Origin: Amycolatopsis sp. 195334CR
GTDB lineage: Bacteria; Actinomycetota; Actinomycetes; Mycobacteriales; Pseudonocardiaceae
Length of the DNA: 64,000 nt
Direction: 5' to 3'
NCBI RefSeq assembly: GCF_017309385.1
Contig: NZ_JAFJMJ010000004.1
Location: 517,447-581,446 of the forward strand
Position 1 is the stretch's first letter. Each line of letters begins with the position of its first letter. Shown in pieces: positions 7,387-62,647 of this stretch. Under the pieces are notes generated by a model. The model saw nothing but the letters and a program-made list of their open reading frames with translations. It had not been told where the DNA came from and searched no databases. Position numbers and translations under genes: made by a program.

Positions 7387-9066
7387 TCAGCGTTCGTCCA
7401 GCGAACGCGCCAGCTCGCCCGCGGTTTCGGCGAGCAGGAGGTCGGCGAGCGCGATCGGCAGCCCGGTCGCCCGCCGCAACTCCGCGGCGACCCGGTTCAT
7501 CCGCAGCGAGTCGCCGCCGAGTTCGAAGAAGTTGTCGTCCATGCCGACCGCGTCCACGCCGAGCACCGCCTGCCAGGTCTCGGCGACCAGCTTCTCGGCC
7601 GGGGTGACCGGGGCGGGACCCGCCTCGGTCACCGGCTCGCCGGGTACCGGCAGCGCCGCGGTGTCCACCTTCCCGTTGGGGGACAACGGCAGTGCCGGGA
7701 GCTGGAGCAGCGACGACGGCACGAGGTAGGCGGGCACCCGCTCGGCCAGCCACGCCCGGAGCGCGGTCAGGTCGAGCCCATCGGTTTCGGGCACCACGTA
7801 CGCGAGCAGCCGGGCACCGCCCGCCTGGTCCGGCACCCCCAGCGCGGCGGCGGCACGGACGTCGGGGTGCTCGCCGAGGCAGGCTTCCAGTTCACCGGGT
7901 TCGACCCGGAAACCGCGGATCTTCACCTGCCGGTCGGCCCGGCCGAGGAACTCCAGCGTGCCGTCGGAGAGCCGTCGCACCAGGTCGCCGGTGCGGTAGC
8001 GCCGCGTGCCGCCCGGCCCGGCGACGAACCGGGTGGCCGTCGCGCCGGGCCGGTCGTGGTAACCCCGGGCCAGGTTCACCCCGCTCACGTAGAGTTGCCC
8101 GATTTCCCCGTCCGGCACCGGCACGAGCTTGTCGTCCAGCACCTGCGCGGTGACCCCGGCCAGCGGGTGCCCGATCGGCATCGTGCTCCGGCCGTCCGCG
8201 GCCAGTTCGCCGAGGCCGGGCTGGAGGGTGGTGAAGGTGGTGCACTCGGTCGGGCCGTAGCCGTTCACCAGCCGCGTTCCCGGTGCCAGGGCGGCGGCTT
8301 GGCGCACGACGTCGGCACGCACGGTGTCGCCGCCGGCGAACAGCAGGCGCAGCCCGCCCGGCAGCCGTTTCTCCGCGGTGACGAGTTCGTGGAACAGTCC
8401 CGCGGTGAGCCACGCGACGCTGACCCGCGCCCACTCCAGGAATTCGAGCAGGTCACCGGTGCCCAGCGCACCGGGCGGTGCGATGGCGAGGGTGGCGCCG
8501 CGGGTGAGCGCGCCCCAGATCTCGAAGGTGGAGGCGTCGAAGGCCAGCGGCGCGTACTGCAGGACACGGTCGCCCGGCTCGATGCCGAGCCCCGGCTCGG
8601 ACACCAGGTTCACCACGGCCTCGTGGGTGGCCACCACGCCCTTGGGCACGCCGGTGGAACCGGAGGTGTAGACGAGGTAGGCGGAGTTGCCCGGCAGCGG
8701 CGGCTCCGGAACCACACCGTCCACAGTGTCCAGTTCGGCGGTGCCGGTGAGCACGAGCCGCGCACCCGAGTCGGCGATCACCCGGTCCCGGTGCGCGGGC
8801 GGGTGTCCCGGATCCAGCGGGACGTAGAAACCTCCGCACTTCAGCACGGCGAGCATCAGCACCACGGCCTCGGCGCCGCGCGGGACCTGGAGCGCGACCG
8901 GGGTTTCGCGGCGCACCCCCAGCGCGGCCAGCGCACCGGCCAGCTCGTCCGAGCGGGCCTTCAGCGCGGCGTAGCTGAGCGTGCCGCCGGGATGGTGCAG
9001 GGCGATCGCGTCGGGGGAGACCGCCGCCTGGCGGTCGACGAGTTCGGGCACGGTGTCGCTGGTCAT
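7387..9066 (-). CDS. free-standing NRPS adenylation-thiolation (A-PCP) didomain
   Basis: A 559-aa didomain that activates and tethers one amino acid. The A domain (1-480) has A3 LVYTSGSTGVPKGV, A5 NGYGPTE, A7 YRTGDLV and A10 LPLSPNGKVD; the PCP carries Ser520 in ELGGDSLRMN. Pocket residues read by eye are about D-A-F-W-L-A-G-T-F-K, close to the valine code DAFWIGGTFK, so Val or another branched aliphatic residue is a fair guess. The start overlaps the stop of the ATP-grasp gene by 4 bp (ATGA), implying translational coupling. With no C domain, it may supply a starter or a substrate held for modification, or pass its amino acid to the ATP-grasp partner. Confidence 0.93.
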   Translation of the reverse strand: MTSDTVPELVDRQAAVSPDAIALHHPGGTLSYAALKARSDELAGALAALGVRRETPVALQVPRGAEAVVLMLAVLKCGGFYVPLDPGHPPAHRDRVIADSGARLVLTGTAELDTVDGVVPEPPLPGNSAYLVYTSGSTGVPKGVVATHEAVVNLVSEPGLGIEPGDRVLQYAPLAFDASTFEIWGALTRGATLAIAPPGALGTGDLLEFLEWARVSVAWLTAGLFHELVTAEKRLPGGLRLLFAGGDTVRADVVRQAAALAPGTRLVNGYGPTECTTFTTLQPGLGELAADGRSTMPIGHPLAGVTAQVLDDKLVPVPDGEIGQLYVSGVNLARGYHDRPGATATRFVAGPGGTRRYRTGDLVRRLSDGTLEFLGRADRQVKIRGFRVEPGELEACLGEHPDVRAAAALGVPDQAGGARLLAYVVPETDGLDLTALRAWLAERVPAYLVPSSLLQLPALPLSPNGKVDTAALPVPGEPVTEAGPAPVTPAEKLVAETWQAVLGVDAVGMDDNFFELGGDSLRMNRVAAELRRATGLPIALADLLLAETAGELARSLDER

Positions 9067-21400: not shown

Positions 21401-23929
21401 GGCGACGGCCGCGCCGTGCTGCGGCCGGTGGCTTCGCTCGAAGGCGACGACCTGGCCGCCGTCCGCGCCTGGTGCGAGGCCAACGGGCAGCGGTTGCCGG
21501 GCTTCCTGCTGGCGTTGTTCGCCGCCTTCGCCGGACGGCATGCGGCGGGGCAGGACGACTACTTCGTCTACACGCTGGCCGGTGGCCGTCCGCCGGAGCA
21601 GGCCGATTCGCTCGGCTGCTACCTGCACGTCCTGCCGGTGCACGTACCGCGGCCGGGGCCGGCGGAATCGGCGGCCGACTACGCCGCGCGCTTCCGCCGG
21701 CGACGTCGGGAAGCACGCGGGCACGAGGCGGTCTCCGCCTTCCAGCAGCGCCGGATCCTGCCCGAGGACAACCTCCGGTTCGTCTTCAACTTCCTGCCGG
21801 CCAACCTGGTCGCGAAGGTGGGTGGCGACGTCGCGTACGCCACCTACGAGGACGTGCCGTTCGACGAGGCGCACCTGACCCTGCGCGAGTACGACGACCA
21901 CATCGAACTGCTCTTCCAGTGCGCGCCGGACCTGTTGTGGGGTGAGCACTTCGCCGCCGCCTTCGCCCGGTTCGCGGTCGCCGCGGTGTCCGGCGGCCCG
22001 TTGGCCGCGGTGCCGTCGGTGCACGGCGAGGCCGAAGCCTGGCTGCGGCAGGTCAGCGCCGGACCCACTCGAGACCCCGGCTGGGAGACCGTGCTGGAGT
22101 GGGTCGAGCACACCGCGGCCGCCCAGCCGGACACCGTCGTGCTGTCCGAAGGGGACCGACAGCTCACCCATCGCGAACTCGGCGAGCAGGCGAACCGGCT
22201 GGCCCGCGGCCTGGTCGCGCTCGGTGCCGGGCCCGGCGAGGTGGTCGCCGTGGCGGTGCCGCGCTCGGCCGAGCTGGTGGTCTCGCTGCTGGCCGTGGTC
22301 AAGACCGGCGCCGCGTTCCTGCCGGTCGACCCGGAACTGCCCGCCGAGCGGGTGGCGATGATGATCGGCGACGCCGGGGCGAAGCTGGGCCTCACCGTCA
22401 CCGGCACCCTGCCGGTCCTGCCCGAGCTGAAGTGGCTGGTGCTCGATGATCCCGGGGCGTCGGCCCGCCTGGCCGAACTGCCCGCGCACGACCTGAAGCC
22501 GGAGATCTCCGACGGGACACCGATGTACGTGCTGTTCACCTCCGGGTCCACGGGACGGCCGAAGGGCGTGGTCGTCGAACACCGCGGTGTGGTGAACCGG
22601 CTGCACTGGATGCAGGAGGAGTTCGAGCTGACCGGCGCCGACGTGGTGGCGCAGAAGACCCCCGCCGGGTTCGACGTCTCGGTCTGGGAGTTCTTCTGGC
22701 CGCTGGTCGCCGGGGCACGGCTGGAGGTGCTGCCGCCCGGCGCCCACCGCGATCCCGGCCAGCTGGTGAAGGTCATCCGCGCGGCGGGGGTCTCGGTACT
22801 GCACTTCGTGCCGTCGATGCTGAGCGTGTTCGCCGAGGATCCCGAAGCGCCGGAGTGCACCAGCGTGCGCGACATCGTGTGCAGTGGTGAGGTCCTGCCG
22901 GGTGCGCTGCGGGACCGGGTGGCCGGCGTGCTGCCGGGTGCCCGCCTGCACAACCTGTACGGGCCGACCGAAGCCTCGATCGACGTGACGCGCTGGGCGT
23001 GTGCCGAGGATTCCGGTCCGTCGGTGCCGATCGGCCGGGCCGTGCCGAACACCTCGTTGCACGTGGTCGACGCGGGCGGGCGGCTCGTGCCGCCCGGGGT
23101 GGCCGGTGAGCTGTGCATCGGCGGGGTGCAGGTGGCGCGCGGGTACGCCGGGCGCCCCGGGCTGACCGCCGAACGGTTCGTGCCGGATCCCCACGGCGTT
23201 CCCGGCGCCCGGGTGTACCGCACCGGGGACCGCTGCCGGTGGCGCGCGGACGGCGCGCTGGACTACCTCGGCCGCGACGACGGCCAGCTCAAGATCCGGG
23301 GCCAGCGCGTGGAACTGGGCGAGATCCAGACCGTGCTGGCGCGGCACGAGGACGTCCGGGAGGCGGTGGTCAGGGCCCGCGACGGCGGTCGCGGCGAAGG
23401 CGACGTGCTGCTCGACGCCTACCTGGTGCCCGCCGGTGCCGGACTGTCCACAGAGGACGTCCGGGCGCGCGCCAGGGTGGTGCTGCCCGGCTACATGCTC
23501 CCGGCCACCTGGACCGTGCTGGACGAGCTCCCGGTCACCGCCAACGGCAAGCTCGACCACCGCGCGCTGCCCGCCCCGGACGACGTCACCGGGAACTCGG
23601 CGGCGGTGGTGCCCGCCACCGAGCTGGAGGCGGCGATCGCGGCGGTGTGGGCGGAGACGCTGGACCGCCCGGTGCCCGGGGTGACGGACAACTTCTTCGA
23701 CCTCGGCGGGCATTCGCTGTTGCTGCTGCGGGTGCACGCCCGGCTGCAGCGGGCGCTGGACCGTCCACTGCGGATCGTGGACCTGTTCAGCCACCCGACG
23801 GTGCGGGCGCTGGCCGCGCACCTCGGCGGCGCGGACGGGGGCGAGCCCGCCGCGCGGCCGCGGGCGGGCAGGCGGCGGGCCGCCGCGGAACTGCGGCAGA
23901 AGCGCCTCGGGGCCAGGGGCGCGCGGTGA
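12431..23929 (+). CDS. hybrid PKS-NRPS megasynthase: KS-AT-pseudoKR-ACP-C-A-PCP-C-C-A(Ser)-PCP
   Basis: A 3832-aa assembly-line protein. KS (8-430) has Cys179 (TACSSS), [13 protein letters not shown] and [12 protein letters not shown] (535-830) has Ser618 in [10 protein letters not shown] and HAFH, so malonyl is likely. A shrunken KR relic (890-1180) lacks the GGxGxxG and Ser/Tyr residues, so the beta-keto group should stay. ACP Ser1225. C1 (1290-1720) has HHIVSDY. A1 (1725-2215) has an unassigned pocket, about D-S-W-T-S-A-L-V-Y-K. PCP Ser2276. Then two C-type domains in tandem (about 2320-2760, HHSILDGWS; 2775-3190, HHAVIDGPS). A2 (3200-3690) has pocket about D-V-W-H-V-S-L-I-D-K, the Ser pattern. 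PCP Ser3762. There is no terminal TE, so the chain must pass to another protein. Domain borders are estimates. Confidence 0.95.
15098..15971 (+). other. degenerate ketoreductase relic in the first PKS module
   Basis: Between AT and ACP about 290 residues keep the outline of a [16 protein letters not shown] matches [14 protein letters not shown] of the next PKS, and [17 protein letters not shown] stands where GGLGRIG should be. Both the dinucleotide loop and the Ser/Tyr catalytic region are lost. It is probably structural only, so this module should not reduce. Confidence 0.75.
19450..22060 (+). other. tandem condensation-type domains within the first megasynthase
   Basis: Two consecutive C-superfamily domains lie between PCP1 and the Ser-type A domain. 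The first starts at [15 protein letters not shown] and has [10 protein letters not shown]; the second starts at [15 protein letters not shown] and has [10 protein letters not shown]. Both keep HHxxxDG. One may form the peptide bond while the other modifies the residue (for example dehydration, epimerisation or recruitment of a tailoring enzyme). Confidence 0.85.
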
Positions 23930-23956: not shown

Positions 23957-26900
23957 GTGAGGTTTGTGAGTGATCCGGTAGACGCGATCGCGGTGGTCGG
24001 CATGAGCTGCCGGTTCCCCGGTGCGGACGATCCCGAGCGGTTCTGGGCCAACCTGACCGCCGGCGTGGAGTCCATCTCCACCTTCGACCCGGCCGAGCTG
24101 CGGGCGGCCGGGGTCGACCCGGCGCTGCTGGACCACCCCGGCTTCGTGCCGAGGGGCGGGGTGCTCAGCGACCTCGACCGGTTCGACGCCGCCTACTTCG
24201 GTTACAGCCCGCGCGAGGCCGAGCTGATCGACCCGCAGCAGCGGCTGTTCCTCGAATGCGCGGCGGGCGCGCTCGACGACTCCGGGTACGACCCGGCGCG
24301 GTTCGACGGCGTGGCGGGCATCTACGCCGGGGTCGGGCTCAGCTCGTACATGTGGAACAACATCTACCCGAGCGAGAGCGAGCTGGCCGACGTCAGCCAG
24401 ATGCAGATGATCCTGTCGGTGGACAAGGACTACCTGGCCACGCGCGCGGCGTACAAGCTCGACCTGCGCGGGCCCGCGGTGACCGTGCAGAGCGCCTGCT
24501 CCACCTCGATGGTGGCCATCCACCTGGCCTGCCAGGGCCTGCTCACCGGGGAGTGCGACATCGCGCTGGCCGGTGGGGCGTCGCTGATCCTGCCGGAGGT
24601 CCGCGGGTACGTGTACGAGGAGGGCGGCGTGCTCTCCCCGGACGGGCACTGCCGCTCCTTCGACGCCGACGCCAAGGGCACCGTGCCGGGCAGCGGGGTC
24701 GGCGTGGTGGTGCTGCGGCGCCTGGAGGACGCGCTGGAAGACGGGGACACGATCCACGCGATCGTCCGCGGTTCGGCGATGAACAACGACGGTTCGGCGA
24801 AGGTCGGCTACACCGCGCCCGGCACGCGCGGGCAGACCCAGGTGATCACCGACGCGGTCAGCGCCGCGGGCGTGGACGTGGACACCATCGGGTACGTCGA
24901 GACGCACGGCGCGGCCACCCCGCTCGGCGACCCGATCGAGATGACCGCGCTCGCCGACGCCTTCCGCGCGCTCGGCGCCGACCGGGACCGCGCGTGCGCG
25001 ATCGGCTCGCTGAAGTCGAACATCGGGCACCTCGACTCGGCCGCCGGGGTGGCCGGGTTCATCAAGTCGGTGCTGATGGTCAAGCACGGGAAGGTCCCGC
25101 CGAGCCTGCACTTCCGGGCCCCGAACCCGAACATCGACTTCGCCTCGATGCCGTTCTACGTCAACGCCGAACTCGCCGGCTGGCCGGTGCCCGGGGTGCC
25201 GCGCCGGGTGGGCATGAGCTCGTTCGGCATCGGCGGCACCAACGCGCACATCGTCGTCGAGCAGCCCCCGCCACCGCGGCGGCGGGCACCGGGGGGTGGG
25301 GAGCGGCCGATCCTGCTCTCCGCGCGCACCCCCGCCGCACTGGAGCGGGCCACCGACCGGCTGGCCGAGCACCTGCGGGCGCACCCGGACCTGGTTCTGG
25401 CCGACGTGGCGGGCACCCTCGCCACCGGCCGCCGGGTGCACGCCCACCGCCGGGCCGTGGTGGCGGCCGACCTCGCGGGCGCGGCGAAGGCACTGGAGAA
25501 CCGGGCACCGGAGGTGTTCACCTCGGCCGGGCCCGCCGGGAGCCGGTCGGTGGTGTTCCTCTTCTCCGGCGTCGGCGACCAGTACGTGAACCTGTGCTCC
25601 GGGCTGTACCGGGACGAACCGGTGTTCCGCGCCGAACTCGACCGGTGCGCCGAACTGTTCACCCCGCACCTGGGCTTCGACCTGCGGGAGAAGCTGTTCG
25701 ACAGTTCGGCCGAACCGGCGGGCGAACTGCCCGCCGACCCGTTCGCCCGGCTCCTCCAGGAGCGCGAGGCGGGGCCGCTCGACGAGACGATCGTCGCGCA
25801 GCCGCTGCTGTTCGCCGTCCAGTACGCGATGGCGCGGTTGTGGATGCACTACGGCGTGCGCCCGGACGCCCTGCTCGGCTACAGCGTCGGCGAGTACGTC
25901 GCGGCCGCCGTCGCCGGGGTGTTCTCGCTCGCGGACGCCACCTGGCTGGTCGCCCGCCGCGCGCGGCACATCGGCGGCTTGCCCGGGGGCGCGATGCTCG
26001 CGGTGATGAGCGCGGCCGAGCGGGTCGAGCCGCTGCTGGGCGACCGCCTGTCACTGTCCGCTGTGGACGCTCCCTCGCTGTGCGTGGTCGGCGGCCCGGC
26101 GGAGGAGGTCGACGCGCTCGCCGAACGCCTGCGCGCCGACGGCGTCGCCAGCCGCCGCGTGCCCGCCGAGCACGCGTTCCACACCTGGATGATGCGCCCG
26201 CTGGAGGAAAGCCTGCGGGCCGACTTCGACGGGGTGGGCCTCAAGCCGCCGGAGATCCCGTACCTGTCCAACGTCACCGGGCAGTGGGTCACCCCGGCCG
26301 AAGCGACCGATCCCGGGCACTGGGCGCGGCACAGCGTGGCCACCGTCCGGTTCGCCGACCAGATCGAGGCGATGTGGCAGCTGACCGCGCCGGTGGTGGT
26401 CGAACTGGGGCCGGGCCGCGCGCTGGGGAGCCTGCTCGTGCAGCACCCCGCTCGCGCCGACGACGGCCTCGTGCTGGCCACCTCGCCCGCCGCGCACGAT
26501 CGGGCGGAGGACCGGACGGTCCTGCTCGAAGCGCTGTCCAGGGCCTGGCTCGCCGGGGTCGAGGTGGACTGGCCGAAACTGCACGCGAGCGGTGAATGGG
26601 GCCGGGTGAGCCTGCCCGGCTACCCGTTCGAGCGCACCAGCTACTGGCTGTCCGCGCGGGCGCCGGGCAAGGCCGTCCCCGGTCCGCGGGCCACCGGCAG
26701 GCAGGCCGATCCGGCGGACTGGTTCCACCTGCCGAACTTCTCCCGCGGCCTGCCGCCGGAGGCCGAGGCAGACGCGGCGGCCGGGGAGACCTGGCTCGTC
26801 GCCGGGGACGCCGAGTCGATCGCCGGCGCGGTCGCCGCCCGTTCGGCCGCCCGGGTGATCCGGGTGAGCTGGGGCGAGGCGTTCACCGCGCACGGCGAGG

Positions 26901-28543
26901 ACCGGTACACCCTCGATCCCGGCGAGCTGGACGGCTGGCTGACCCTGCTGCGCGGGCTGAAGGACGCCGTGCCAGGGCGCGTGGTGTTCGGTGTGGACGG
27001 TCCGCAGTGGGACTTCACCGCCTTCCACGGCCTGGTGTCGCTGGTGCGCGCGTGGACCGAATGCGGGTTCGTCGACGACGTGGAGATCGGCGTGCTGTCG
27101 GTGTCCGGGCTGGCCGTGGCCGGGGAGACCGAGGTGCGGCCGGAACGCGGCATGGTGGCGGCGCTGTGCCGGGTGATCGGCCAGGAACTGCCGCAGGCGC
27201 GCTGCCGGTTCATCGACACCGCGCCGGCGGTCTGGACCCGTCAGCGTGAGCGCCTGCTGACCCACCTGCACGCGGAAATCGTGGCGGGTCAAGACGATTG
27301 TGTCGCCTACCGCGGTGACACCCGCTGGGTGCGCGGCTTCGTGCCCGCCCGGCTGGCGGCCACGGGCGCCACGCGCCTGCGTGAGGGCGGGTGCTACCTG
27401 GTTTCCGGCGGGCTCGGCCGGATCGGCGCGGTGATCGGGGAACTGCTGGCCACCCGCAGGGCCCGGATAGGCGTGATCCGGCGTTCGGTGGTGCCCGCCC
27501 GCGACCAGTGGGACGACTACCTGGCGAACGCCGATCCGGACGACTCGGTCGCCGCCGAGATCACCACGATCCGGCGGCTGGAGGCGGCGGGTGCCACGGT
27601 GGCCACCGCCTCGGCCGACGTCGCCGACGAGGAGGCCTTCGCGGGCGCGGTGTCGCGGCTGGAACAGGAACTCGGCCCGTTCGACGGCGTGTTCCACGTG
27701 GCCGGGGTGGTGACCGCGGAGGGCGTGGTGCCGCTGGCCGAGGCGACACCGGACAGCGCGGAACCGCACCTGGCCGCGAAAGCGCGGGGGGTGCGGGTGC
27801 TGGCCGGGGTGTTCGCCGGGCGGGAGCTCGACTTCGTGCTGCTGTGCTCGTCGATCGCGTCGGTGCTCGGCGGGATCGGGTTCGCCGCCTACGCCGCGGC
27901 CAACCTGTACACCGAGTTGTTCGCCGCCGGCCGGTCCGCCGCCGACGGCACCCCGTGGACGGCACTGGCCTGGGAGGGCTGGACCGTCGAGGGCGACGAC
28001 GACGCGGCGGCGACGCTGCGCGAGTACCTCATCGACGAGGACGACGCGAGGGGCGTGCTCGACCGCGTGCTCGCCGGGAGCCTGCCCGCCCAGCTGGTGA
28101 ACTCGACCGGCGACCTGGAGTCCCGGTTCGACCAGTGGTCCGGCGACGGTGACGACGGCGAGCCCGCACCCCGCCACGGCGGCGGGCACGCCCGCCCGGA
28201 CCTGCAAACCGCGTACGTGGCACCGGAGACCGAGATCGAGAAGCTGCTCGCCGGGGTGTGGGCGGGCCTGCTCGGCATCGACCGGGTCGGCGTGCACGAC
28301 AACTTCTTCGAACTCGGCGGCCACTCGCTGCTCGGCACCAGGGTGATCTCGCGGGTGCTGAAGGACCTGCGGGTCCAGGTGCCGCTGCACACCCTGCTGA
28401 CCAGCCCGACGGTGGCCGAACTCGCCGCTGCGGTGGCGGAACTGAAGGCCGCGCCGGCGGCGCCGTCGATCACCCGCGTCGACCGCGGTGGTTACCGGCA
28501 GCGCCGCGAAGCGGCCGAGCCGACAGGAGCGATGACCCAGTGA
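23957..28543 (+). CDS. type I PKS module KS-AT-KR-ACP
   Basis: A single 1528-aa PKS extension module. KS has Cys181 (SACSTSM), [11 protein letters not shown] and [12 protein letters not shown] has Ser643 in [10 protein letters not shown] and HAFH, so malonyl is expected. KR has SGGLGRIG (about 1150), Ser in [11 protein letters not shown] and the YAAAN catalytic tyrosine (about 1312), so it looks active and should give a beta-hydroxy group. The LDD motif of B-type KRs is not seen. ACP Ser1457 lies in [11 protein letters not shown] basic tail follows. GTG 23957 is used, though GTG 23966 is also possible. It is 27 bp after the first megasynthase and shares GTGA with the next gene, so the three are translated together. 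It carries no obvious docking domain. Confidence 0.94.
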
Positions 28544-31500
28544 GCGCAGAGCACGAGCAGATCCACCGGTTCCCGGCGTCCTTCGCCCAGCGGCGGCTGT
28601 GGCTGGTCCAGCAGGTCGATCCGGGCAACCCGTTCTACCTGATCCCGATGGGGATGCGGTTGCGCGGCGAACTCGACGTGCCCGCGCTGCGGCGGGCGCT
28701 GGCCGCCGTGGTCGACCGGCACGAGGCGCTGCGCACCGGGTTCGCCGTCGAGGACGGCGAGCCGGTGCAGGTGGTGCGTGGCCGGGTGGAGGTGCCGTTG
28801 CCGGTGACCGACCTGCGGGCGCACGCCGACCCGGAGGCGGAACTGGCCCGGCTGGAGGCCGAACTCGGCGCGCGCCCGTTCGACCTGGCCGAGCCGCCGC
28901 TGCTGCGCGCGCTGCTGGTCCGGCTGGGCGAGGCCGACCACCAGTTGCTGATCACCATCCACCACATCGTCTGCGACGCCTGGTCGCAGGACATCTTCTT
29001 CCGCGAACTGGGCGAGTGCTACGCCGCCTTCGCCCGTGACGAGACTCCCGAACTGCCCGAACTCGCCGTGCAGTACCCGGATTTCGCGATCTGGCAACGG
29101 GATCTGGCCGAGACACCGGAGTTCGCCCGCCAGCTGGACCACTGGCGCGAGCACCTGCGTGACGCGCCCCGGCTCTCGGCGCTGCCGCTGGACCGGCCGC
29201 GCCAGGCGAAGCGGGACCACCGCGGTGCCTGGCACGACTTCGTGGTCCCCGCCGACGTGCTCGATGAGCTCCGGACGTTGGCCAGAGCGCACAACTGCAC
29301 GTTGTTCATGGTCGTGTTCGCGGCCTTCTCGGTGCTGCTGTCGCGTTCGGCCGGGCAGGACGACCTGGTGATCGGCTCGCCGATCACCGGCCGGGGCCGT
29401 CCGGAACTGGAGGACCTGGTCGGGTTCTTCGTCAACACGCTGCCGCTGCGTGCCGACCTCTCCGGCGATCCGGCGTTCACCGAACTGCTCGCCAGGGTGC
29501 GCCGGACCTGCCTGGACGGGGTGGCCAACCAGGACGTGCCGTTCGAGAAGCTGGTCGAGGAGCTGGCACCGGACCGCGACCCCAGCCACGACCCGCTGTT
29601 CCAGAACATCCTGGTGTTCCAGGGACCGGCGAGCGCCGAGGTCGGCGTCGGCGACCTTTCCCTGGAGTACCAGGGGAAGAACAACAACACCGCGAAGTTC
29701 GACCTGTCCCTGTACGCGGGGGAGGCCGAGGACGGGCTGCGGTGTTCCTTCGAGTACGCCACCGCGTTGTTCGACCCCGGAACCGTCGAACGCCTCGGCC
29801 GCCGGTTCACCACGTTGCTGACCGGGATCACCGCGGACCCCGGCACGCCGCTGTCCGCGTTGCCGCTGCTGGACGGCGGTGAGCGCGACCGCCTGCTGGA
29901 GTGGGGGCGGCGCGGCTGGCCCGAGGTGCCGGTGCCGGAGGCCACCCTGCCGGAACTGGTGCTCGGGTCCACTTCGGACGCGACCGCGGTGTGGCACGCG
30001 GATCGGGTGCTGACCTACGCCGAGCTGGACCGGGAATCCGGCCGGCTGGCCCGGCGCCTGCGGGCCGCCGGGATCGGACCGGACGTGCGGGTCGGCGTGT
30101 GCCTGCCGCGCACACCGGACCTGGTGATCGCGTTGCTCGCGGTATTGCGGGCCGGGGGCGCGTACGTGCCGCTGGACCCGGAGTACCCCGCCGAGCGGCG
30201 GCGGCTCATGCTCACCGACGCGGACGCTCCCGCGCTGATCACCGACGACCCCGGCGCCTTCGACGGCTATGACGGCCAGGTGCTCACCGTCGGGGGCGAT
30301 GGCGCGGAGGCCCCACTGCCGGAAACGCCGCCGTCCGGGCAGAGCGCCGCCTACGTCATTTACACCAGCGGCTCCACCGGCCGTCCTAAAGGGACGGTCA
30401 TCTCCCACGACGCCGTGCGGCACCTGCTGTCCTGGGGCCGCGACCTGCTCGACGACGACGAACTGGCCGGCGCGGTCGCGACCTCCTCGGTCTGCTTCGA
30501 CGCCTCCGTGCTCGACCTGTGGGTGCCGCTGGCCTTCGGCGGCCGGGTGGTGCTGGTGGACAACGCGTTGCACGTCGGCACGCTGCCGGACGAGGCGGCG
30601 GCGATGGCGCGGTACTTCTTCGCGGTGCCTTCGGTGGTCGGTGAACTGCTGCGGGCCGGGCGCCTGCCCAGCGACCTGCGCACCTACATCGCCGGTGGCG
30701 AGGAACTGCCCGCGGCCACGGCACGCGCGATCTTCGACGCCGGTGCCCGCCGGGTGGTCAACGTCTACGGCCCCACCGAAACCACGGTCGTCGCCACCAG
30801 CCTCGAACTGACCGCGGGCGAACAGCCGGACGTGCACCTGGGCCGGCCGCTCGGCCACGCCAGGGTGTTCGTGCTCGACGACACGGGCGCACTCGCGCCG
30901 ACCGGGGTCTTCGGTGAGCTGTACATCGGTGGTTCGGGGGTCGGGCTCGGTTACCTCGGCAATCCGGCGCTGACCGCGTCGCGGTTCGTGCCCGATCCCT
31001 TCGGTGAGCCGGGTGCGCGGCTGTACCGCACCGGTGACGTGGTGCGCTGGCGGTCCGACAGCGGGCTGGAGTTCCGCGGCCGGGCCGACCACCAGGTGAA
31101 GATCCGCGGGTTCCGGATCGAACTGGGTGAGGTGGAGGCGGCGCTGGCCGGGTTCCCCGGGGTCACCGAATCGGCCGCGAAGGTGGTCACCACCGAGGCG
31201 GGGGAGCGGCTGCTGGCCGGGTACCTCACCGGGGACGTGGACACCGGCGCGGTGAAGGCGTTCCTGCGTGAGCGCCTGCCCGCCTACCTGGTGCCCGGCG
31301 TGCTCGTCCGGCTGGACGAACTGCCGCGCACGGTGAGCGGGAAACCCGATCGCTCGCGCCTGCCCGAGCCCCGGCCCGCCGCGCGCGAGACCCAGCGCGT
31401 GGCCCCGCGCAACCAGATGGAACGGCTGGTGCTCGGCATCTGGCAGGACGTGCTGTCGCGGCAGGACGTCGGGCCGCACGACAACTTCTTCGACCTCGGC

Positions 31501-34500
31501 GGGCATTCGCTGCTGCTGATCCGCATGCACACCGCGCTGACCGAGGCGTTGCCGGTGACCGTGCCCTTCGCCGAGTTGTTCCGCCACACCACGGTCAGCA
31601 CGCTCGCCGCCCACCTGCGCGAACTCGCTGAACCCGTCACACCGAAGGCCGTTGTGAAGGAGGAGAAACCGGTGCGCAGCAGCGAGAAACCCAGCGCCCG
31701 CGAGAACGACATCGCGGTCATCGGCATGGCCTGCCGGTACCCGGGCGCGAGCAGCCCCGAGGAGTACTGGCGGGTGCTGCTGGACGGCCTCGAAACGATC
31801 ACCACCGCCACCGCGGACGAGATCCGCGCGGCGGGGTTCGGTGACGACGCCTTCGCCGAGGACTTCGTGCCGCGCGGTGGCGCGCTCCAGGGCATCGAGT
31901 ACTTCGACGCGGGCTACTTCGGCTACAGCCCCAGCGAAGCGGAGCTGATCGACCCGCAGCAGCGGCTGTTCCTGGAGTGCTCGGCCGAGGCGCTGCAACG
32001 CGCCGGGCACGACCCCGAGCAGTTCGAGGGCGGCATCGGCGTCTACGCCGGGGTCGGGCACAGCGACTACATGTGGCACAACACCTTCGTCAACCAGGAG
32101 ACGGTGCCGAACTCCAACGGCGCGCACCTGCTGATCTCCTGGGACAAGGACCATCTGGCCACCCGGGTTTCCTACAAGCTGAACCTGCGCGGCCCGGCGA
32201 TGACCGTGCAGACCGCGTGCTCCACCTCGCTGGTGGCCACCCACGTCGCGGCCCGCGCGCTGCTCGCCGGCGAGTGCGACATGGCGCTGGCCGGTGGCGC
32301 GTCGATCCTCATCCCGAACGTCGGCTACAAGTGGGTCGAAGGCGGGATCTTCAGCCCGGACGGGCACTGCCGCCCGTTCGACGCGGCTTCGCAGGGCACG
32401 CTGCCGGGCAGCGGCGTCGGCGTGGTGGTGCTCAAGCGGCTGGCCGACGCGCTCGCCGACGGCGACCCGGTGCACGCGGTGATCCGCGGTTCGGCGATCA
32501 ACAACGACGGTTCGGCGAAGGTCGGCTACACCGCGCCGGGCGTGGCCGGGCAGGCCGCGGTGATCCGGAAGGCGCTGGCCGCGGCGGGCACCGAACCGGG
32601 CAGCATCGGGCTGATCGAGGCACACGGCACCGGCACGGTGCTCGGCGACCCGATCGAGGTGACCGCGCTGACCCAGGCGTTCACCGAGCACGGCCCGCTG
32701 CCGCCCGCGTCGTGCGCGCTCGGCTCGGCCAAGTCCAACTTCGGCCACCTCGGGACCGCGGCCGGGGTCGCCGGGCTGATGAAGGCGGCGCTCGCCGTCG
32801 AGCACGGGGTCGTACCGCCGTCGCTGCACTTCGAACGCCCGAACCCGAACACCGATCTCGACGGCAGCCCGTTCTTCGTCAGCAGCGAACCGGCCGCTTT
32901 CCCCGGTGACGGCCCGCGTCGCGCGGGTGTCACCGCACTGGGCATCGGCGGTACCAACGCCCACGTCGTGCTGGAACAGCCACCGGCGCGGCAGCCGTCG
33001 ACGCCCGGTCGGGGCTGGCAGATCCTGCCGCTTTCCGCCCGCAGCCGCGGTGCGCTGGACACCGCGACCAAGGAACTGGCCGACCACCTCGCCGGGACAC
33101 CGGACACCGATCTCGCCGACGTGGCCTACACGCTGCAGCTCGGCCGGACCGCGCTGGACCAGCGCCGGGTGGTGCTGGCCAAGACCACCGCCGAGGCGGC
33201 CGAACTGGCCCGCGACGGCGGGGAGGAGTTCCTGCGGGTTCGCGAAAGCGGTGACGCGCGGAGTTCCTGGACGCTGGTGCTGCCGGGTGCTTTCCCGGTC
33301 GCGCCGGGCAGGCTGGCGAAGCTGTACTGGCGGCTGCCGGTGATCCGGGCCGCGGTCGACGAGTGCTGCGACCTGCTCACCCCGGGCCTCGGCGCCGACC
33401 TGCGCGAGTCGGTGTTCCTGGCACCCGCCGACGATCCGGTGGACCCGGGGTTCGAGAAGGCCGCGCGGTTCGTCACGCTCTACGCACTGGCCCGCGGCCT
33501 GACCGAGCTGGGCCTGCGACCGGACGAGATCGCCGCGTCCGGCGCCGGTGAGCTGGTGGCCGCGTGCCTGACCGGCGTGCTGGACCTCCAGCAGGCGGTG
33601 TCCGTGCTGCTGGGCCAGGGCGCGCCGGAGGCCGGTGCCGCGCCGGAGATGCCGTGGAGTTCGGTGGCGTGCGACGGGTTCGTCACCGAGGACGAGCTGG
33701 GTGATCCGGAGTTCTGGACCGACGGCATCTGGGCCGGCGGCGACTTCGGCGAGGTGCTCGAACCGCTGCTGGACGACCCCGCGCAGGTGCTGGTGGTGGC
33801 GGGCGCGACCGGTTCGGTGCCGGGCTGGGAACCGCCGTCGGGTGAGCTGGTCGAGGTGCTGCCGGAGGACTCGGCCGACGCCGAGTACGACTTCGCCGCG
33901 GCGCTGGGCAGGCTGTGGCTCTCCGGTGCGGTGGTGCACTGGAAGTCGTTGTTCGAGGGACAGCGGCGGGCGCGCCTGCGGCTGCCGACCTATCCGTTCG
34001 AGCGCAACCGCTACTGGCTGGAGCCGCCCGCCGAGGCGAAGCCGTCGGCGATCGCGGTACCGGCGGGCGAGCGCGTCGCCGATCCGGCCGACTGGTTCTA
34101 CGCGCCTTCGTGGAAGCGCGCCACCCGCCCGGTGGCGACCGGCACCGGCGGCACCTGGCTGGTGGCCGGCATGGACACGATCGCCGGTGACGTCGCCGAA
34201 CTCGGTGCCGACCGGGTGATCCCGGTCCACTGGGGACGGTCGTTCGCCGATCTCGGCGAGGACGGCTACCTGGTCGACCCGGAATCGCCCGCCGACTGGG
34301 AACGCCTGGTCGAGGCGCTGCGGGATGCCGGCGAGGCGCCTGACCACATCGTGCACGGCGCCGGGGTGATGGACGACGACACCGCGCCCGGTGGTTACGA
34401 CTCGTTCCTCGGTGTGCTGTTCCACGCCAGGGCGCTGGCGAAGGCCGGGGTCACCGGCGTGAACCTGTCCGTGCTCACGGTCTCCGGACTCGCCATCGCC

Positions 34501-36537
34501 GACGAGCCGCGCGTGCTGCCCGAACGCGGCATGATCTCCGGACTGCTGCGCGTGGTCGCGCAGGAGGCGCCGGGCCTGCGCTGCCGGTTCGTCGACGCGG
34601 GTCCGGTGGGGACCGGGAAGCGGCGTGCGCGGCTGCTCGGCAGGCTCACCGCCGAACTGCTCGCCGGGGACGAGCCGTGCGCCGCCTACCGCGGTGAGCA
34701 CCGCTGGGTGCCCGACCACGTCGCGGTTCCCCTGCCGGACGCCGATTCCTCGCTGCTGCGGCGTGACGGCTGCTACCTGATCGTCGGCGGGCTCGGCCGG
34801 ATGGGCACGGAGATCGCGCGGCTGCTGGCCGGGGCCAGGATCGGCCTGATCCGGCGATCGGGCACCGACGACATCCGGGTGATCCAGGAACTGGAGTCCG
34901 CCGGTTCGGAGGTGGCCGCGATCACCGCCGACGTCGCCGACGAGGCCGCGTTCAGCGACGCGGTCGCCCGGCTGGAGGAGCGGCTCGGCCGGTTCGACGG
35001 CGTTTTCCACGCCGCCGGGGTGGTTTCCGGTGAGCGGCTCGTCCCGGTGGCCGACGCGACCGCCGAAGCGGCCCGTGCCCACCTCGCCGCCAAGGCCGAC
35101 GGTGCCGCCGTGCTGGCCAGGGTGTTCGCCGGGCGGGAGCTGGACTTCGTGTTCCTCTGCTCGTCGATCTCCTCGGTGCTCGGCGGTGCCGGTTTCGCCA
35201 CCTACTCGGCCGCGGCCGTCTACGCCGAACTGTTCGCCGCGCGCCAGTCGATGGCCGGGGAGACACCGTGGATCGCGGTCGCCTGGGACAGCTGGCGGAA
35301 CACCGGCAAGCTCGGCCTGGACGGTGGTGAGGCGCGGGAGGTACTGCGCCGGGTGTTCGCCGCCGATCCGCTGCCGCAGCTGGTGGTGTCCACCGGGAAC
35401 CTGCCCGCGCGGATCGCCGAAGCGGCAGGCGGCCAGGAAACCGGTGACCCGGCTCAGGAAACCAGTGAGACCGTCTATCCCCGGCCGGACCTCGCCACCG
35501 AGTACCTGGCGCCGCGCGACGAGACCGAACGCCGGATCGCCGGGCTCTGGCAGGGCTTGCTCGGCATCGACCGTGTGGGCGTCCGGGACAACTTCTTCGA
35601 ACTGGGCGGGCATTCGCTGCTGGCGGTCCGCCTGGTGAGCGCCCTGCAGTCGGAGTTCGGCGACACCACGGTCTCCCTGGCCACCGTGCTCAAGGCGACC
35701 ACCGTCGAACTGCTCGCCGGTGCGGTCGCGGGCACCCCGTCCGGTGGGGACGCCTCCTGCGTGGTGCCGGTGCACACCACCCCGGGCGCACCGAAGTTGT
35801 TCCTGGTGCACCCGCTCGGCGGCACGGTCCTCTGCTACCACGCGCTGGCCGGTCAGCTGGCCCCCGAGTGGTCGCTGTACGGGCTGCAGTCGCCGTCGGT
35901 GTCCGGTGGGGACGGTCCGGAGACGGTGCCCGAACTGGCTGCCCGGTACGTCTCCGACCTGCGTGCCGAACAGCCGGAGGGCCCGTACCACCTCGGCGGG
36001 TGGTCGCTCGGCGGCGCGATCGCCTACGAGATGGCCCGGCAGCTCACCGCCGCCGGGCAGCGGGTGGCCGAAGTGGTGATCATGGACGTTGAGCCGCCGG
36101 ACCCGGACCAGCCGGTGCGCACCACCGAGGCCGAGATCGTGCTGGCCCTGCTCGACGCCCGCGACCTCGCGGTGACCGACCTGCCCGAGCCGGGTACCGG
36201 CACGGTGGCCGAGCGGATGCGTGCCTACGCTGACTGGGCGGGTGAACGCGGGCTGGTCAAGCCCGGTCCGGACACCGACCGCCTGGTGCGGTTGTTCGTG
36301 GCCGCGCACCACAACCTGACGGCCTGGCAGTCGTACCGGCCCGAGCCTTACGCCGGGCGCGTGGTGTTCCTCCAGGCCGAGGAGAGCGGCGCGGACGGCG
36401 CGGACTGCTACGGCTGGCGGTCCTACGCGAGCGCGATCGAGCCGCACAAGGTGCCCGGCGGTCACGAGACGATGCTGCGGGAACCCCACGTGGCCACGGT
36501 CGCCAAGGTGCTGTCCGGATCGCTGGTCGAACCGTGA
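28540..36537 (+). CDS. hybrid NRPS-PKS megasynthase: C-A-PCP-KS-AT(inactive)-KR-ACP-TE
   Basis: A 2665-aa terminal assembly-line protein. C (1-440) has [10 protein letters not shown] near 141. A (455-950) has pocket about D-A-L-A-Y-A-V-V-V-K, not assigned. PCP Ser990. KS (from 1056) has Cys1227 (TACSTSL), [12 protein letters not shown] and [10 protein letters not shown]. The AT slot (about 1575-1830) is short, reads [10 protein letters not shown] where GHSxG should be, and lacks HAFH, so it should be inactive. KR has VGGLGRMG and [10 protein letters not shown], with Tyr in YSAAA where Asn of YxxxN is replaced. ACP Ser2359. TE has Ser2489 in [12 protein letters not shown] and GGHETM. The module needs an AT in trans, most simply the free AT at 5309-6604. 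The TE marks this as the likely release point. It starts in a GTGA overlap. Confidence 0.95.
33262..34020 (+). other. degenerate acyltransferase slot in the KS-AT-KR-ACP-TE part
   Basis: Residues remain recognisable at both ends ([13 protein letters not shown] at the start, [16 protein letters not shown] at the end). The catalytic GHSxG is ASGAG, and the second half with the HAFH substrate motif is deleted. Compared with the two intact ATs in the preceding megasynthases it is about 80-100 residues short. Confidence 0.85.
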
Positions 36538-56242: not shown

Positions 56243-56243
56243 G

Positions 56244-59131: not shown

Positions 59132-59386
59132 TCAGCCGACCGGCGCGCCGTTCTTCCCGATGAACGCGGCGATGTCCCCGATGGACCGGAAGTTGTCCAG
59201 GGTGAGGTCACCGCCGCGCACCGCGATGCCGAACTCCTTCTCCAGCCAGACCACGATCTGGACGGCGAACAGCGAGTTCAGGTGCCCGCCGGTGAACAGG
59301 TCCTCGTTGTCGGGCACGGTCTTGCCGCCGAGGTGCGCGGTGATGTACTCGCGCACGGTGGCCAGGTGGTTCTCGTGGTTTTCCAT
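59132..59386 (-). CDS. discrete acyl carrier protein (extender-unit ACP)
   Basis: An 84-aa ACP. The phosphopantetheine site is in GGHLNSLFAVQIVVWLEKEF, with Ser after Asn (NSL instead of DSL). This NSLFA pattern is typical of the ACPs that carry methoxy-, hydroxy- and aminomalonyl precursors (FkbJ, ZmaD/ZmaH type). It is the last gene of the ACAD-ligase-HAD-ACP operon, 17 bp after the HAD gene. It would carry the amino acid during oxidation and present the finished extender unit to an AT. The start ATG 59386 has an aaaggg site. Confidence 0.9.
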   Translation of the reverse strand: MENHENHLATVREYITAHLGGKTVPDNEDLFTGGHLNSLFAVQIVVWLEKEFGIAVRGGDLTLDNFRSIGDIAAFIGKNGAPVG

Positions 59387-59403
59387 GGATGGCACCCTTT
59401 CGC

Positions 59404-60264
59404 TCAGGCGTAGTCGTAGAAACCGCGGCCGCTCTTCACCCCGTGCAGCCCGGCGTCGACCAGCCGGGTCAGCAGCGGGCACGGCCGGTACTTGCTGTCC
59501 CGCAGGCTGTCGTGGATCACCTCCAGCGACAGCAGGACGGTGTCGAGGCCGATCAGGTCCGCGGTGGCCAGCGGCCCCATCCGGTGCCCGAAGCAGTCCT
59601 TGAACAACCGGTCGATGTCGGCGGCCGAATCGGCGACGCCCTCGTGCAGCAGGAAGATCGCCTCGTTCACGGTCAGCATCATCACCCGGTTGGTGACGAA
59701 GCCCGCCGCGTCGTTGACCACGATGCTGTCGCGGCCCGCCTGGCGGAACAGCGCCTGGGTGCGGTCCACCGTCTCGGCGGAGGTGTGCGTCCCGCGGATC
59801 ACCTCGACCAGCGGCTTGAGCGGCGCGGGGTTCATGATGTGCGTGCCGATCACCCGGTCGGGTCGCTCGGTGCGCCCGGCCAGCCGGGTGATCGAGATGG
59901 CCGAGGTGTTCACGCCGATCACGCAGTGCGGCGGGCAGATCGAGTCCAGCTGCGGGTACAGCGCCTCCTTGACCTCCCGCTTCTCGGTCACGTTCTCCAC
60001 CACGAAGTCGCTGTTCTTCAGGTCGTGCGGATTGGCGGAGAACACGATGCGGCCGGTCACCTCCGCCGGGTCCAGCCGCGGCAGGGCGGGATCCACCAGC
60101 GGGTAGAGCGCGACGTTCCGCTCGATCAGCTCGCGGGACCTGGTCAGCGCTGCCTCGGCGGTGTCGACCAGCACCACCTGGTGCCCGGCCGCGGCGAACA
60201 GGTGCGCCACCCCGGTGCCCATGGTCCCCGCGCCGACCACGCCGATGTTCTCTTTCCCAGCCAT
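59404..60264 (-). CDS. 3-hydroxyacyl-CoA dehydrogenase-like oxidoreductase (extender-unit type)
   Basis: A 286-aa dehydrogenase. The NAD Rossmann motif GVVGAGTMGTGVA starts at about residue 8. The catalytic His is in IGTHIMNPAPL, followed by VVNDAAGFVTNR, the family hallmark. Homologues (FkbK, OzmG, ZmaG type) oxidise the CH2OH of a glyceryl- or seryl-ACP to the aldehyde level on the way to hydroxy- or aminomalonyl-ACP. Its ATG shares one base with the stop of the ligase gene (TGATG), so translation is coupled. Neighbouring ACAD, ligase and ACP genes support an extender-unit role rather than beta-oxidation. Confidence 0.9.
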   Translation of the reverse strand: MAGKENIGVVGAGTMGTGVAHLFAAAGHQVVLVDTAEAALTRSRELIERNVALYPLVDPALPRLDPAEVTGRIVFSANPHDLKNSDFVVENVTEKREVKEALYPQLDSICPPHCVIGVNTSAISITRLAGRTERPDRVIGTHIMNPAPLKPLVEVIRGTHTSAETVDRTQALFRQAGRDSIVVNDAAGFVTNRVMMLTVNEAIFLLHEGVADSAADIDRLFKDCFGHRMGPLATADLIGLDTVLLSLEVIHDSLRDSKYRPCPLLTRLVDAGLHGVKSGRGFYDYA

Positions 60265-61466
60265 CACAGCCTCACCTTCGGATTCGTCTCGATGCGCACG
60301 CCGGCGGGCCACCCGGCCGGGTCCACCCCGTGGCGGCACAGGAACGCGTAGGTGAACCGCTCCAGGCCGATGCCCGCGCAGCCGGTGATCACCGGGCCCT
60401 CGCCGCCGTCGTGCGGCCGGATGCCGAACGACCGGCCGAAGAAGTCGTCGTGGAAGTTGAACGAGGCCGCGGCCAGCGTCTTCTCCGGCCCGATCGGCAG
60501 CCGCAGCTCGTACTTGAGTTCCAGCAGCCGCTGCGACCACGCCCGCTGCGGGGACTCGACGCTGCCGAAGAACGGGTCGTTGCCGACCTCGCAGTGCCCG
60601 CCCAGCCCCAGTTCCTCGGCGAACGCGGTGGTCAGCTCCAGCATGCGGCGGCGCTGCTCGAGCACCCGCTCCCGCGTGCCGAGGAAGACGATCTCGCGGA
60701 TGGTGAAGTCCCACAGTCGTTCCAGCGAGCGCCAGTACCGCGACTCGTGCCGGAAGGACTTGCCGCGCGCGGTGATCACCAGGCCGGGCGCGGGCAGCGG
60801 CTGGTCCTGCAGGTGCCGGTAGGTGTGGTAGCACATGGTCGGCGGCAGGCAGTGCGAGGTGTCGCCGCAGTAGTCCAGCAGGCCGGGCAGTTCCCCGTCG
60901 CCCGCCTGGACGTCGGAGAGGAAGCCGCGGTAGTTGTCCGCGTCCGCGTGCAGCCGGGTGACCAGCATCAGGAAGTGCGGGAACGAGGTGAAGTACCCGC
61001 ACCGGCGCATCGTCTCGGTCGCGATCAGCGTCGGGTACCGGTACTGCCGCGCGCCGAACTCGGCGGAGACCAGCTCGGTCAGCCGCCGGTCGAAGTACTC
61101 CATCAGCGCGGTGACGGCCGGGCCGAGCGCGAACTGCCCCGGTCCCATGTGGACCAGTTCCCCCGAGGTGAGCAGTTCCTCGGCGACGTCGTGCACCTCA
61201 CCGGCGTGGGGTGAGCTCCAGACGACCCGCGGTGGCCCGGCGCGCTGCGGGCGGACCTCCTCGTCGGCCATCCGGTTGACCTTGGCCGCCAGCTCGGCGG
61301 TGTCGGCCGGGCCGTCGGTGCTGAGCACCACCTCGGTCAGGTCGCCGCCGGGCCCGGGCAGCTTGAAGTCCACAATGGACTCGGAAAGGAAGTAGATGCG
61401 CTGCGCCAGTTCCCCGGTCAGTTCGGCGGGGAGCGGTGCGGTCAGCGCGATGCGGTGTTCGGCCAT
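60264..61466 (-). CDS. class II seryl-tRNA-synthetase-like amino acid:[carrier protein] ligase
   Basis: A 400-aa protein with a class II aaRS catalytic core but no tRNA-binding coiled coil. Motif 2 is GKSFRHESRYWRSLERLWDF and motif 3 is ITGCAGIGLERFTYAF. A Cys (RRCGYF), a Glu (FRHE) and a Cys (TGCAGIG) match the zinc site of atypical SerRS and of the carrier-protein ligases described in Bradyrhizobium. Those ligases adenylate a small amino acid and load it on a discrete carrier protein instead of tRNA. Here the partner should be the ACP at 59132, giving an aminoacyl-ACP, probably seryl-ACP. ATG 61466 has a perfect GAGGAGG site. In aminomalonyl pathways this loading step is normally done by an NRPS A domain. 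Confidence 0.88.
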   Translation of the reverse strand: MAEHRIALTAPLPAELTGELAQRIYFLSESIVDFKLPGPGGDLTEVVLSTDGPADTAELAAKVNRMADEEVRPQRAGPPRVVWSSPHAGEVHDVAEELLTSGELVHMGPGQFALGPAVTALMEYFDRRLTELVSAEFGARQYRYPTLIATETMRRCGYFTSFPHFLMLVTRLHADADNYRGFLSDVQAGDGELPGLLDYCGDTSHCLPPTMCYHTYRHLQDQPLPAPGLVITARGKSFRHESRYWRSLERLWDFTIREIVFLGTRERVLEQRRRMLELTTAFAEELGLGGHCEVGNDPFFGSVESPQRAWSQRLLELKYELRLPIGPEKTLAAASFNFHDDFFGRSFGIRPHDGGEGPVITGCAGIGLERFTYAFLCRHGVDPAGWPAGVRIETNPKVRL

Positions 61467-61489
61467 GGGTGCCTCCTCGGCGGTCACGC

Positions 61490-62647
61490 TCAGCTGGGCA
61501 CGCCGAGCAGGCTGGCGACGATGTCGCGCTGGATTTCCGAGGTACCGCCGTAGATCGTGCCGCCGAGCGCGTCACGGAGCTCGCGTTCGACGCCGAACTC
61601 GGTGAGGTACCCGCGGGCACCGTGCAACTGGACCGCGTCGAGCATGGAGCTGAGGTGGCTCTCGCTGATCGCCAGCTTGGCGATCGCCGCGTCCAGCGGT
61701 GCCAGGTGGCCCTCGCGCTTGCGCCAGGCGACCTTGTACAGCGCCAGCCTGGCCAGCTCCAGGCGGACCTTCATGTCGGCGATGCGGTGGCGGACCGCCT
61801 GGTTGGTGCCGATCGGCCTGCCGAACTGCACGCGGTCGCGGGCGTGCGCGACGCAGTCGTCGAGCACCCGGTCCATCACGCCGATCTGGCTGGCGAACAG
61901 CAGGCTGCGCTCCCAGTCGATGGAGCTGGTGAACAGGTTGAACCCGTTGCCCTCGGCGCCGAGCAGGTTGGCCGCGGGCACCCGGCAGCCGTCGAGTTCC
62001 ACCTGCCCCATCTCGGTCGACCGCAGCCCGGCCTTGTCCCAGCTGCGGCTCACCGTGACCCCGGGCAGGTCCCTGGTCACCACGAACGCGGTCAGCGCGC
62101 CGGCCGCCGGGGCGTCCGGGCCGCCGGTGCGGGCGAAGGTCAGGAACACGTCGGCGACCGGGGCGTTCGAGATGAAGGTCTTGGTGCCGTGCAACACGTA
62201 TTCGTCGCCCTCGCGGACCGCGGTGGTGCGCATGCCGAGCACGTCCGAACCGGATTCCGGCTCGGTCAGCGCGTGCGCGCCGATCAGCGAACCGTCGGCC
62301 AGTCCCGGCAGGAAGCGGTTCTTCTGCTCCTCCGTGCCGTGCTCGACCAGGTAGACCGCGCACGCCCACAGGTGGTTGTTCAGCGCGAACACCAGGCCGT
62401 TGTCCCGGCAGCCGTACCCGAGCGCCTCCAGCCCGACGGCGATGGTGACCGGGTCGAGCCCGGAACCGCCGTACCCGGTGGGGATCGGCCAGCCGGTGAG
62501 GCCGAAGGCCGCGCACTTCTTCCACGATTCCCGGTCCAGCCGGGCCTGCCGGTCGCTCTCGGCCGCCGCGTCGCTCAGCTCGGTCCTGGCGAACCGGATG
62601 ACCGACCGGCGCAGCGCCGCTTGCTCGGCTGTGATGCTGAAGTCCAC
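61490..62647 (-). CDS. acyl-CoA dehydrogenase-like flavoenzyme (extender-unit type)
   Basis: An FAD acyl dehydrogenase of 385 aa. It starts VDFSITAEQAALRRSV and has ALTEPESGSDVLGM, QFGRPIGTNQAVRHRIADM and IYGGTSEIQRDIVA. The Glu-before-GT used as base in many ACADs is Gly here, as in the isovaleryl-type subgroup. Homologues FkbI, OzmD and ZmaI act on carrier-bound glyceryl or seryl derivatives and complete the oxidation to hydroxy- or aminomalonyl-ACP. GTG 62647 is chosen from the family N-terminus and a gagaggg site. First of the four-gene extender operon, 17 bp after the aminopeptidase gene, with which it may share a transcript. Confidence 0.9.
   Translation of the reverse strand: MDFSITAEQAALRRSVIRFARTELSDAAAESDRQARLDRESWKKCAAFGLTGWPIPTGYGGSGLDPVTIAVGLEALGYGCRDNGLVFALNNHLWACAVYLVEHGTEEQKNRFLPGLADGSLIGAHALTEPESGSDVLGMRTTAVREGDEYVLHGTKTFISNAPVADVFLTFARTGGPDAPAAGALTAFVVTRDLPGVTVSRSWDKAGLRSTEMGQVELDGCRVPAANLLGAEGNGFNLFTSSIDWERSLLFASQIGVMDRVLDDCVAHARDRVQFGRPIGTNQAVRHRIADMKVRLELARLALYKVAWRKREGHLAPLDAAIAKLAISESHLSSMLDAVQLHGARGYLTEFGVERELRDALGGTIYGGTSEIQRDIVASLLGVPS

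Follow-up and report, generated by a model that had tools for sequence, protein, structure and literature searches.

We propose that four adjacent genes of Amycolatopsis sp. 195334CR form a supply unit for aminomalonyl-acyl carrier protein (aminomalonyl-ACP), in which a ligase related to class II aminoacyl-tRNA synthetases (aaRS) loads serine and the product is used by a polyketide synthase of the same region, here called PKS2. We consider this assignment likely. The genes belong to an antibiotic-type cluster of this soil actinomycete and lie in the stretch of DNA analysed here, hereafter the window. It comprises the terminal 64 kb of a contig (NZ_JAFJMJ010000004.1) that is 581,446 bases long, in a genome of 9.9 Mb. 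They code for an acyl-CoA dehydrogenase (ACAD), the aaRS-like ligase, a 3-hydroxyacyl-CoA dehydrogenase (HAD; used in this sense throughout) and a freestanding ACP. An initial annotation had suggested a merger of aaRS and polyketide chemistry at this site. As judged from gene content and sequence comparison, the recurrence of the HAD-ACP-ligase set, the ACAD lineages and the GYSxG motif of an acyltransferase (AT) lend support to this suggestion.

The four-gene operon

All four genes are located on the minus strand with outer bounds at positions 59132 and 62647, as had been annotated, and the ACP with its NSLFA motif, the HAD, the aaRS-like ligase and the ACAD could each be confirmed by Pfam, NCBIfam or the sequence as read. 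The starts and stops were read off the sequence:

62647-61490, minus strand: ACAD, GTG start, 385 amino acids, with the N, M and C domains of Acyl-CoA_dh (Pfam)
61487-60264, minus strand: class II aaRS-like ligase, GTG start, 407 amino acids, predicted serine:ACP ligase
60264-59404, minus strand: HAD, ATG start, 286 amino acids, Pfam matches to 3HCDH_N (180 bits) and 3HCDH (104 bits)
59386-59132, minus strand: freestanding ACP, ATG start, 84 amino acids, PP-binding 27.8 bits, NSLFA at the phosphopantetheine serine

The ACAD and ligase genes are separated by 2 bases, the ligase stop and the HAD start overlap by one base (TGATG), and the gap between the HAD and ACP genes is 17 bases. A scan for promoters and terminators returned 0 sites and is uninformative here. 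In the ACPs of the 20 relatives for which a sequence was printed, the carrier serine stands in the context [N/S/R/T]S[L/M]F.

The proposed pathway

In the pathway that we infer, the ligase would adenylate its substrate, which is most likely L-serine bound via the zinc ion of the enzyme, and transfer it to the phosphopantetheine of the ACP. The HAD would then convert the hydroxyl of the ACP-bound serine to the aldehyde, and the ACAD would oxidise the aldehyde of the resulting aminomalonyl-semialdehyde-ACP to the carboxylate. The AT of PKS2 would take aminomalonyl-ACP as extender unit, which after the action of the PKS2 ketoreductase (KR) would give an alpha-amino-beta-hydroxy segment. We favour serine as the substrate because the HAD requires a beta-hydroxyl on the acyl chain, which serine has and glycine lacks, and because serine leads to a malonyl-type unit.

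The closest precedent is zwittermicin, whose proteins ZmaG, ZmaH, ZmaI, ZmaJ and ZmaF likewise provide a HAD, an ACAD, a freestanding ACP and a GYSxG AT (PMC4207774, PMC6395733). The second source names the ACP ZmaH, the ACAD ZmaI, a HAD that also serves another unit and the serine-activating adenylation (A) enzyme ZmaJ for the formation of aminomalonyl-ACP (PMC6395733), in agreement with the annotated statement that zwittermicin uses an A domain for serine. By analogy, the window set is predicted to provide the same functions with the aaRS-like ligase in the place of ZmaJ. The matching AT lies within PKS2 in the window, whereas it lies beside the cassette in nine relatives. In colibactin biosynthesis, serine is also loaded by an A domain. 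The review PMC10924459 describes ClbD-F as building the aminomalonyl unit and ClbG as transferring it to ClbK.

Family and metal site of the ligase

By its profile matches, the ligase has a class II aaRS catalytic core that is closest to the amino acid:[carrier protein] ligase family. The only Pfam match, tRNA-synt_2b (the class II core), scores 23.7 bits and is below the cut-off of 29.3, and the best NCBIfam model, 'amino acid--[acyl-carrier-protein] ligase' PRK07080, scores 162 bits, under its curated cut-off of 357. On these scores the ligase is a relative of PRK07080 and not that equivalog. Two NCBIfam seryl-tRNA synthetase (SerRS) models score lower, with 126 (cut-off 611) and 95 bits (cut-off 490). 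A SerRS paralogue was rejected, as these models are far below cut-off and the genome encodes its own SerRS elsewhere (441 bits).

The Cys/Glu/Cys zinc site recognised in the initial annotation corresponds to residues C219, E265 and C370, with the metal itself being predicted. These residues are invariant in an alignment of 49 ligase rows, and also in a second alignment containing 30 close rows (window included), five distant rows and three solved relatives. The Bradyrhizobium ligase has R264 and K325 in common with the window ligase, and neither residue is shared by two archaeal SerRS. Compared to this glycine:[carrier protein] ligase (Bll0957; PDB 3mey, 4h2s, 4h2w), the window ligase is approximately 98 residues longer at the N-terminus, is predicted to use serine instead of glycine and sits with a HAD, an ACAD and polyketide synthases. 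The archaeal-type SerRS (2cj9, 3w3s) possess the same catalytic core and the same Cys/Glu/Cys residues, but their alignments begin only at model residue 77 or later, and at R264 and K325 the window ligase follows the carrier protein ligase instead. An S-F-N-x-H stretch is identical in the glycine ligase, the M. kandleri SerRS and the window ligase. In a fold search with the N-terminal domain, small alpha/beta domains, mostly heavy-metal-associated, were among the matches listed; the best 50 included no N-terminal domain of a SerRS, an absence that carries no weight. The best 120 of 681 ligase matches are mostly named 'hypothetical protein', 'seryl-tRNA synthetase' or with a class-II aaRS name, and the ligase of locus L108, described below, is a hypothetical protein in RefSeq.

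Recurrence of the gene set

A genome search for the four-gene block, as proposed in the initial annotation, revealed that the HAD, ACP and ligase genes recur together in 18 of 28 close relatives and that 12 of these 18 carry a close ACAD gene. The ligase-seeded searches were run on 60 relatives and on genomes of the class (394), of the genus (80), of the genus of G114, here called Streptomyces (392), and of the family to which G440 belongs (250); these sets overlap, and in three of the searches at most 4, 4 and 7 candidates per genome were scored. Ligase homologues fall in two tiers, the close tier being 39-90% identical to the window ligase. This tier is sampled here by 28 loci found via the ligase, namely 26 regions plus L008 and L009, and includes two pairs of near-copies (L077/L079 and L086/L088). 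The nearer of the two named loci belongs to Amycolatopsis dendrobii, with a ligase 90% identical. A 29th close locus, L108, was found via the ACAD and is excluded from the ligase-seeded counts.

A HAD was counted if its gene was on the ligase strand and the midpoints of the two genes lay no more than 3.5 kb apart, and an ACP is present in 18/18 of the loci that passed. The close ACADs, which adjoin the ligase, are 58-94% identical to that of the window (11 at 58-62%, and 94% in the sister locus L008). Four further HAD loci have an ACAD of 32-36% identity, either within 2.4 kb (L090, L092) or at about 5 kb (L081, L082), and the remaining two (L086, L088) are without an ACAD. In locus L083, which was not counted, the ligase is accompanied by an ACP and an ACAD of 33%, and the HAD is encoded on the opposite strand at a distance of 7 kb. 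Nine close loci lack a HAD match (L009, L078, L080, L091 and L093-L097), three of which have weak ACAD matches (25-29%); several of these nine ligases adjoin nonribosomal peptide synthetase (NRPS) or cytochrome P450 genes. As 10 of the 28 relatives are without a same-strand HAD nearby, the ligase family has other uses and is not tied to one pathway.

The control comprised 20 of 31 distant ligase rows (the best 22 minus G186 and G079). A HAD match was found in none of these 20 loci, and a weak ACAD match (30-31%) in two. The difference in HAD occurrence, 18/28 versus 0/20, has a Fisher p of 1.8e-6, uncorrected for relatedness. In the ligase tree, the close set forms one clade (support 99/97), and the window falls in a ten-row clade (96/93) in which all ten rows have a HAD and a close ACAD. 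The 14 rows with a close ACAD are compatible with a single change on this tree, with a support of only 75/82.

The gene order HAD-ACP-ACAD-ligase-AT, which we take to resemble ClbD-ClbE-ClbF-ClbG of colibactin, is found in eight loci (L076, L084, L085, L087, L089, L098, L099 and L108), while L100 has the order AT-ACAD-ligase-HAD-ACP. The cluster including PKS2 is collinear in the sister genome G456, taken as A. dendrobii and represented above by L008, which is weak evidence given how close the two species are.

The AT domains

The AT-containing genes of the window are:

12431..23929, plus strand: PKS1-NRPS, AT with GHSIGE; serine-type motif in the second A domain at 22670
23957..28543, plus strand: PKS2, ketosynthase (KS)-AT-KR-ACP, AT motif GYSVGE at 25877
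28540..36537, plus strand: PKS3, condensation (C)-A-peptidyl carrier protein (PCP)-KS-degenerate AT-KR-ACP-thioesterase (TE), ASGAGE at 33535 replacing GxSxG
5309..6604, plus strand: freestanding AT, SHSLGE, Acyl_transf_1 116 bits

For zwittermicin, PMC4207774 lists GYSLG in the aminomalonyl-ACP AT ZmaF, GYSFG in the hydroxymalonyl-ACP AT of ZmaA, and GHSxG in the tabled CoA-type ATs. The ACYLTRANSFERASE link is seen in nine of the 13 close-ACAD loci, in which an AT adjoins the cassette (8/12 ligase-seeded loci plus L108). In seven of the nine, the order is HAD-ACP-ACAD-ligase-AT, and the AT is followed by a stop or is a separate annotated gene; L076 has the same order but no stop before a C domain. 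The catalytic serine motif is GYS[VIL]G in all nine, whereas nine further ATs from the remaining loci all have GHSxG. This count is limited to ATs of at least 750 nucleotides, with shorter pieces, including L081:1, L084:5235 and two in L107, left out. In the window, the PKS2 AT carries a motif of the GYSxG type (GYSVG) and the PKS1 AT has GHSIG. In the AT tree, the PKS2 AT joins the nine cassette ATs with a support of 98/97, or 99/97 once the freestanding AT of the window is added, and the ZmaA AT falls outside this clade. The freestanding AT is placed just outside the GYS clade (twelve-row set with it, 96/97). The first arginine of the RXR motif is lost in PKS2 (A-S-R) and in the eight ligase-linked ATs with a printed sequence. 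When plasmids were searched for ZmaI or ZmaF with the ZmaA AT as query, identities did not exceed 46% in the best 10 of 60 records.

PKS3 has no Acyl_transf_1 match, and its AT remnant was placed by pairwise alignment with the PKS2 AT. As its serine motif reads ASGAGE, the PKS3 module probably depends on an AT acting in trans, and the freestanding AT is a possible supplier. Upstream in seven of the relatives (L076, L084, L085, L087, L098, L099 and L108), there is a KS after which only a carrier domain and a remnant of an AT follow. A different arrangement is found in L081, L086 and L088, where HAD, ACP and ligase are followed by ACP-C-AT, without a close ACAD; the AT has GHSxG, and C-A-M replaces RXR. 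This could possibly be a further use of the ligase.

The ACAD and its lineage

The nearest solved chain to the window ACAD is 4irn, a prolyl-ACP dehydrogenase (393 bits). ACADs of 47-50% identity adjoin A domains, and no HAD match was found in any of the six such loci inspected (L104-L107, four from 40 rows, and L135 and L136, the latter two with 1.5 kb of flank only). This pattern fits a prolyl-type origin of the ACAD, with the HAD-linked group branching from it. In Streptomyces, a search with the ACAD retrieved matches at E 1e-110 or better in 5/295 genomes; the best six candidates per genome were scored, and the figure is no census. Three of the five are ligase cassettes (G532, G590, G602), and in two the ACAD gene lies beside A domains.

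Alternative explanations

Several observations weigh against the proposed route from serine via aminomalonyl-ACP to PKS2. Glycine is the substrate of the nearest solved ligase, and the residues near the ligase active site fail to separate glycine from serine. The ACAD is nearest to prolyl-ACP dehydrogenases, and these form double bonds, not acids. The last arginine of RXR is kept in PKS2 and in 7/8 of the ligase-linked ATs, and several GHS ATs also lack the first, so that RXR does not separate GYS from GHS ATs. Furthermore, PKS1 to PKS3 end 22 kb away from the operon, the freestanding AT, which neighbours the GYS clade, is a competing candidate for the role assigned to PKS2, and loading of the ACP in trans is conceivable in principle for the A domains of serine type in PKS1 and the second NRPS.

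One might speculate that the ACP receives glycine or some other amino acid from the ligase for another purpose and that the HAD and ACAD act on a different acyl chain of the cluster, as would fit the use of glycine by the solved ligase and the 10 of 28 relatives without a same-strand HAD within 3.5 kb. We consider this unlikely: the HAD, ACP and ligase genes occur together in the other 18, the ligase and HAD genes overlap in the window, the distant loci have no HAD match, and by known chemistry the HAD needs the beta-hydroxyl that is absent from glycine.

Similarly improbable is that the unit yields another serine-derived acyl-ACP, such as a semialdehyde or dehydro-aminoacyl species, which is passed to a condensation domain and not used as a malonyl-type extender. 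The likeness of the ACAD to prolyl-ACP dehydrogenases and the HAD-ACP-ligase sets of L081, L086 and L088, with their ACP-C-AT and no close ACAD, point in this direction. On the other hand, a GYSxG AT is present in 9/13 close-ACAD cassettes and in PKS2, and seven of these loci have the upstream KS, AT remnant and carrier domain. A pyrrole-type pathway, with proline as the ligase substrate and pyrrolyl-ACP as the product of the ACAD, would agree with PigA (412 bits) and RedW (405 bits) being the best NCBIfam models of the ACAD, but both scores are below the cut-offs (500 and 650), no HAD match was found in the six inspected loci where an ACAD of 47-50% accompanies A domains, and to our knowledge a HAD has no role in such a pathway, making this very unlikely.

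Two further candidates were considered. HAD, ACAD and ACP classes as in the window are also found among the FkbH-FkbI-FkbJ-FkbK genes of the glyceryl route. This route was rejected, as there is no FkbH within the window, and the window ACAD is far from FkbI (1r2j), which is not among its best 60 solved matches. The annotated absence of an FkbH-like protein holds for the window but not for the genome, in which two FkbH matches lie on other contigs. In the window, six A domains were identified, and serine-type motifs are present in the second A domain of PKS1 and the first of the second NRPS. The only freestanding one belongs to an A-PCP didomain:

7387..9066, minus strand: A-PCP, valine-like code read by eye

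On account of this valine-like code, the didomain is probably not the serine loader and was rejected as such. A dedicated serine A enzyme of the zwittermicin type was not found in the window.

Implications

In the open-licence literature, which was the scope of our search and leaves novelty unproven with regard to subscription literature, we found no paper that, judged by its entry, connects an aaRS-like ligase with aminomalonyl formation. If aminomalonyl-ACP is indeed made in the proposed way, an aaRS-class enzyme would provide the amino acid for making a polyketide extender, the job of an adenylation enzyme in zwittermicin, and a group of carrier protein ligases would gain a biological role. 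It would also provide a small standalone enzyme for the loading of serine onto carrier proteins, and a ligase adjoining a HAD, an ACP and a GYS-type AT could serve as a genome-mining marker for clusters that make polyketide chains with free amino groups. Beyond the window, we see about an even chance that aaRS-related serine:[carrier protein] ligases, for the most part annotated as hypothetical or as SerRS, form a family in actinomycetes that is a widespread start of aminomalonyl units, that the HAD-ACP-ligase core recruited two ACAD lineages and GYS-type ATs, and that translation-type activation feeds many unexplored polyketide clusters.

Other genes of the window

An aminopeptidase-like gene (ERAP1_C, 62665-63999), which is cut by the contig end, lies directly upstream of the ACAD gene on the same strand, and an ERAP1_C aminopeptidase-like gene is also found upstream of the ACAD gene in L008. 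A 373-amino-acid open frame at 57960-59081 is without a Pfam or NCBIfam match, and no counterpart was found where the sister genome is collinear. The A-PCP gene and an ATP-grasp ligase gene are located at 7387-10304 on the minus strand, with frames overlapping by four bases, and a 519-amino-acid protein with a partial formyltransferase domain is encoded between PKS3 and the second NRPS (36534-38093). From the NRPS genes to the operon (48835-57452), there are genes for a LigB-type dioxygenase, an FAA hydrolase and an aldehyde dehydrogenase, followed by a glutamine-synthetase-like enzyme, a pyridoxal-phosphate-dependent decarboxylase and cytochromes P450, which look like genes for aromatic ring cleavage or tailoring.

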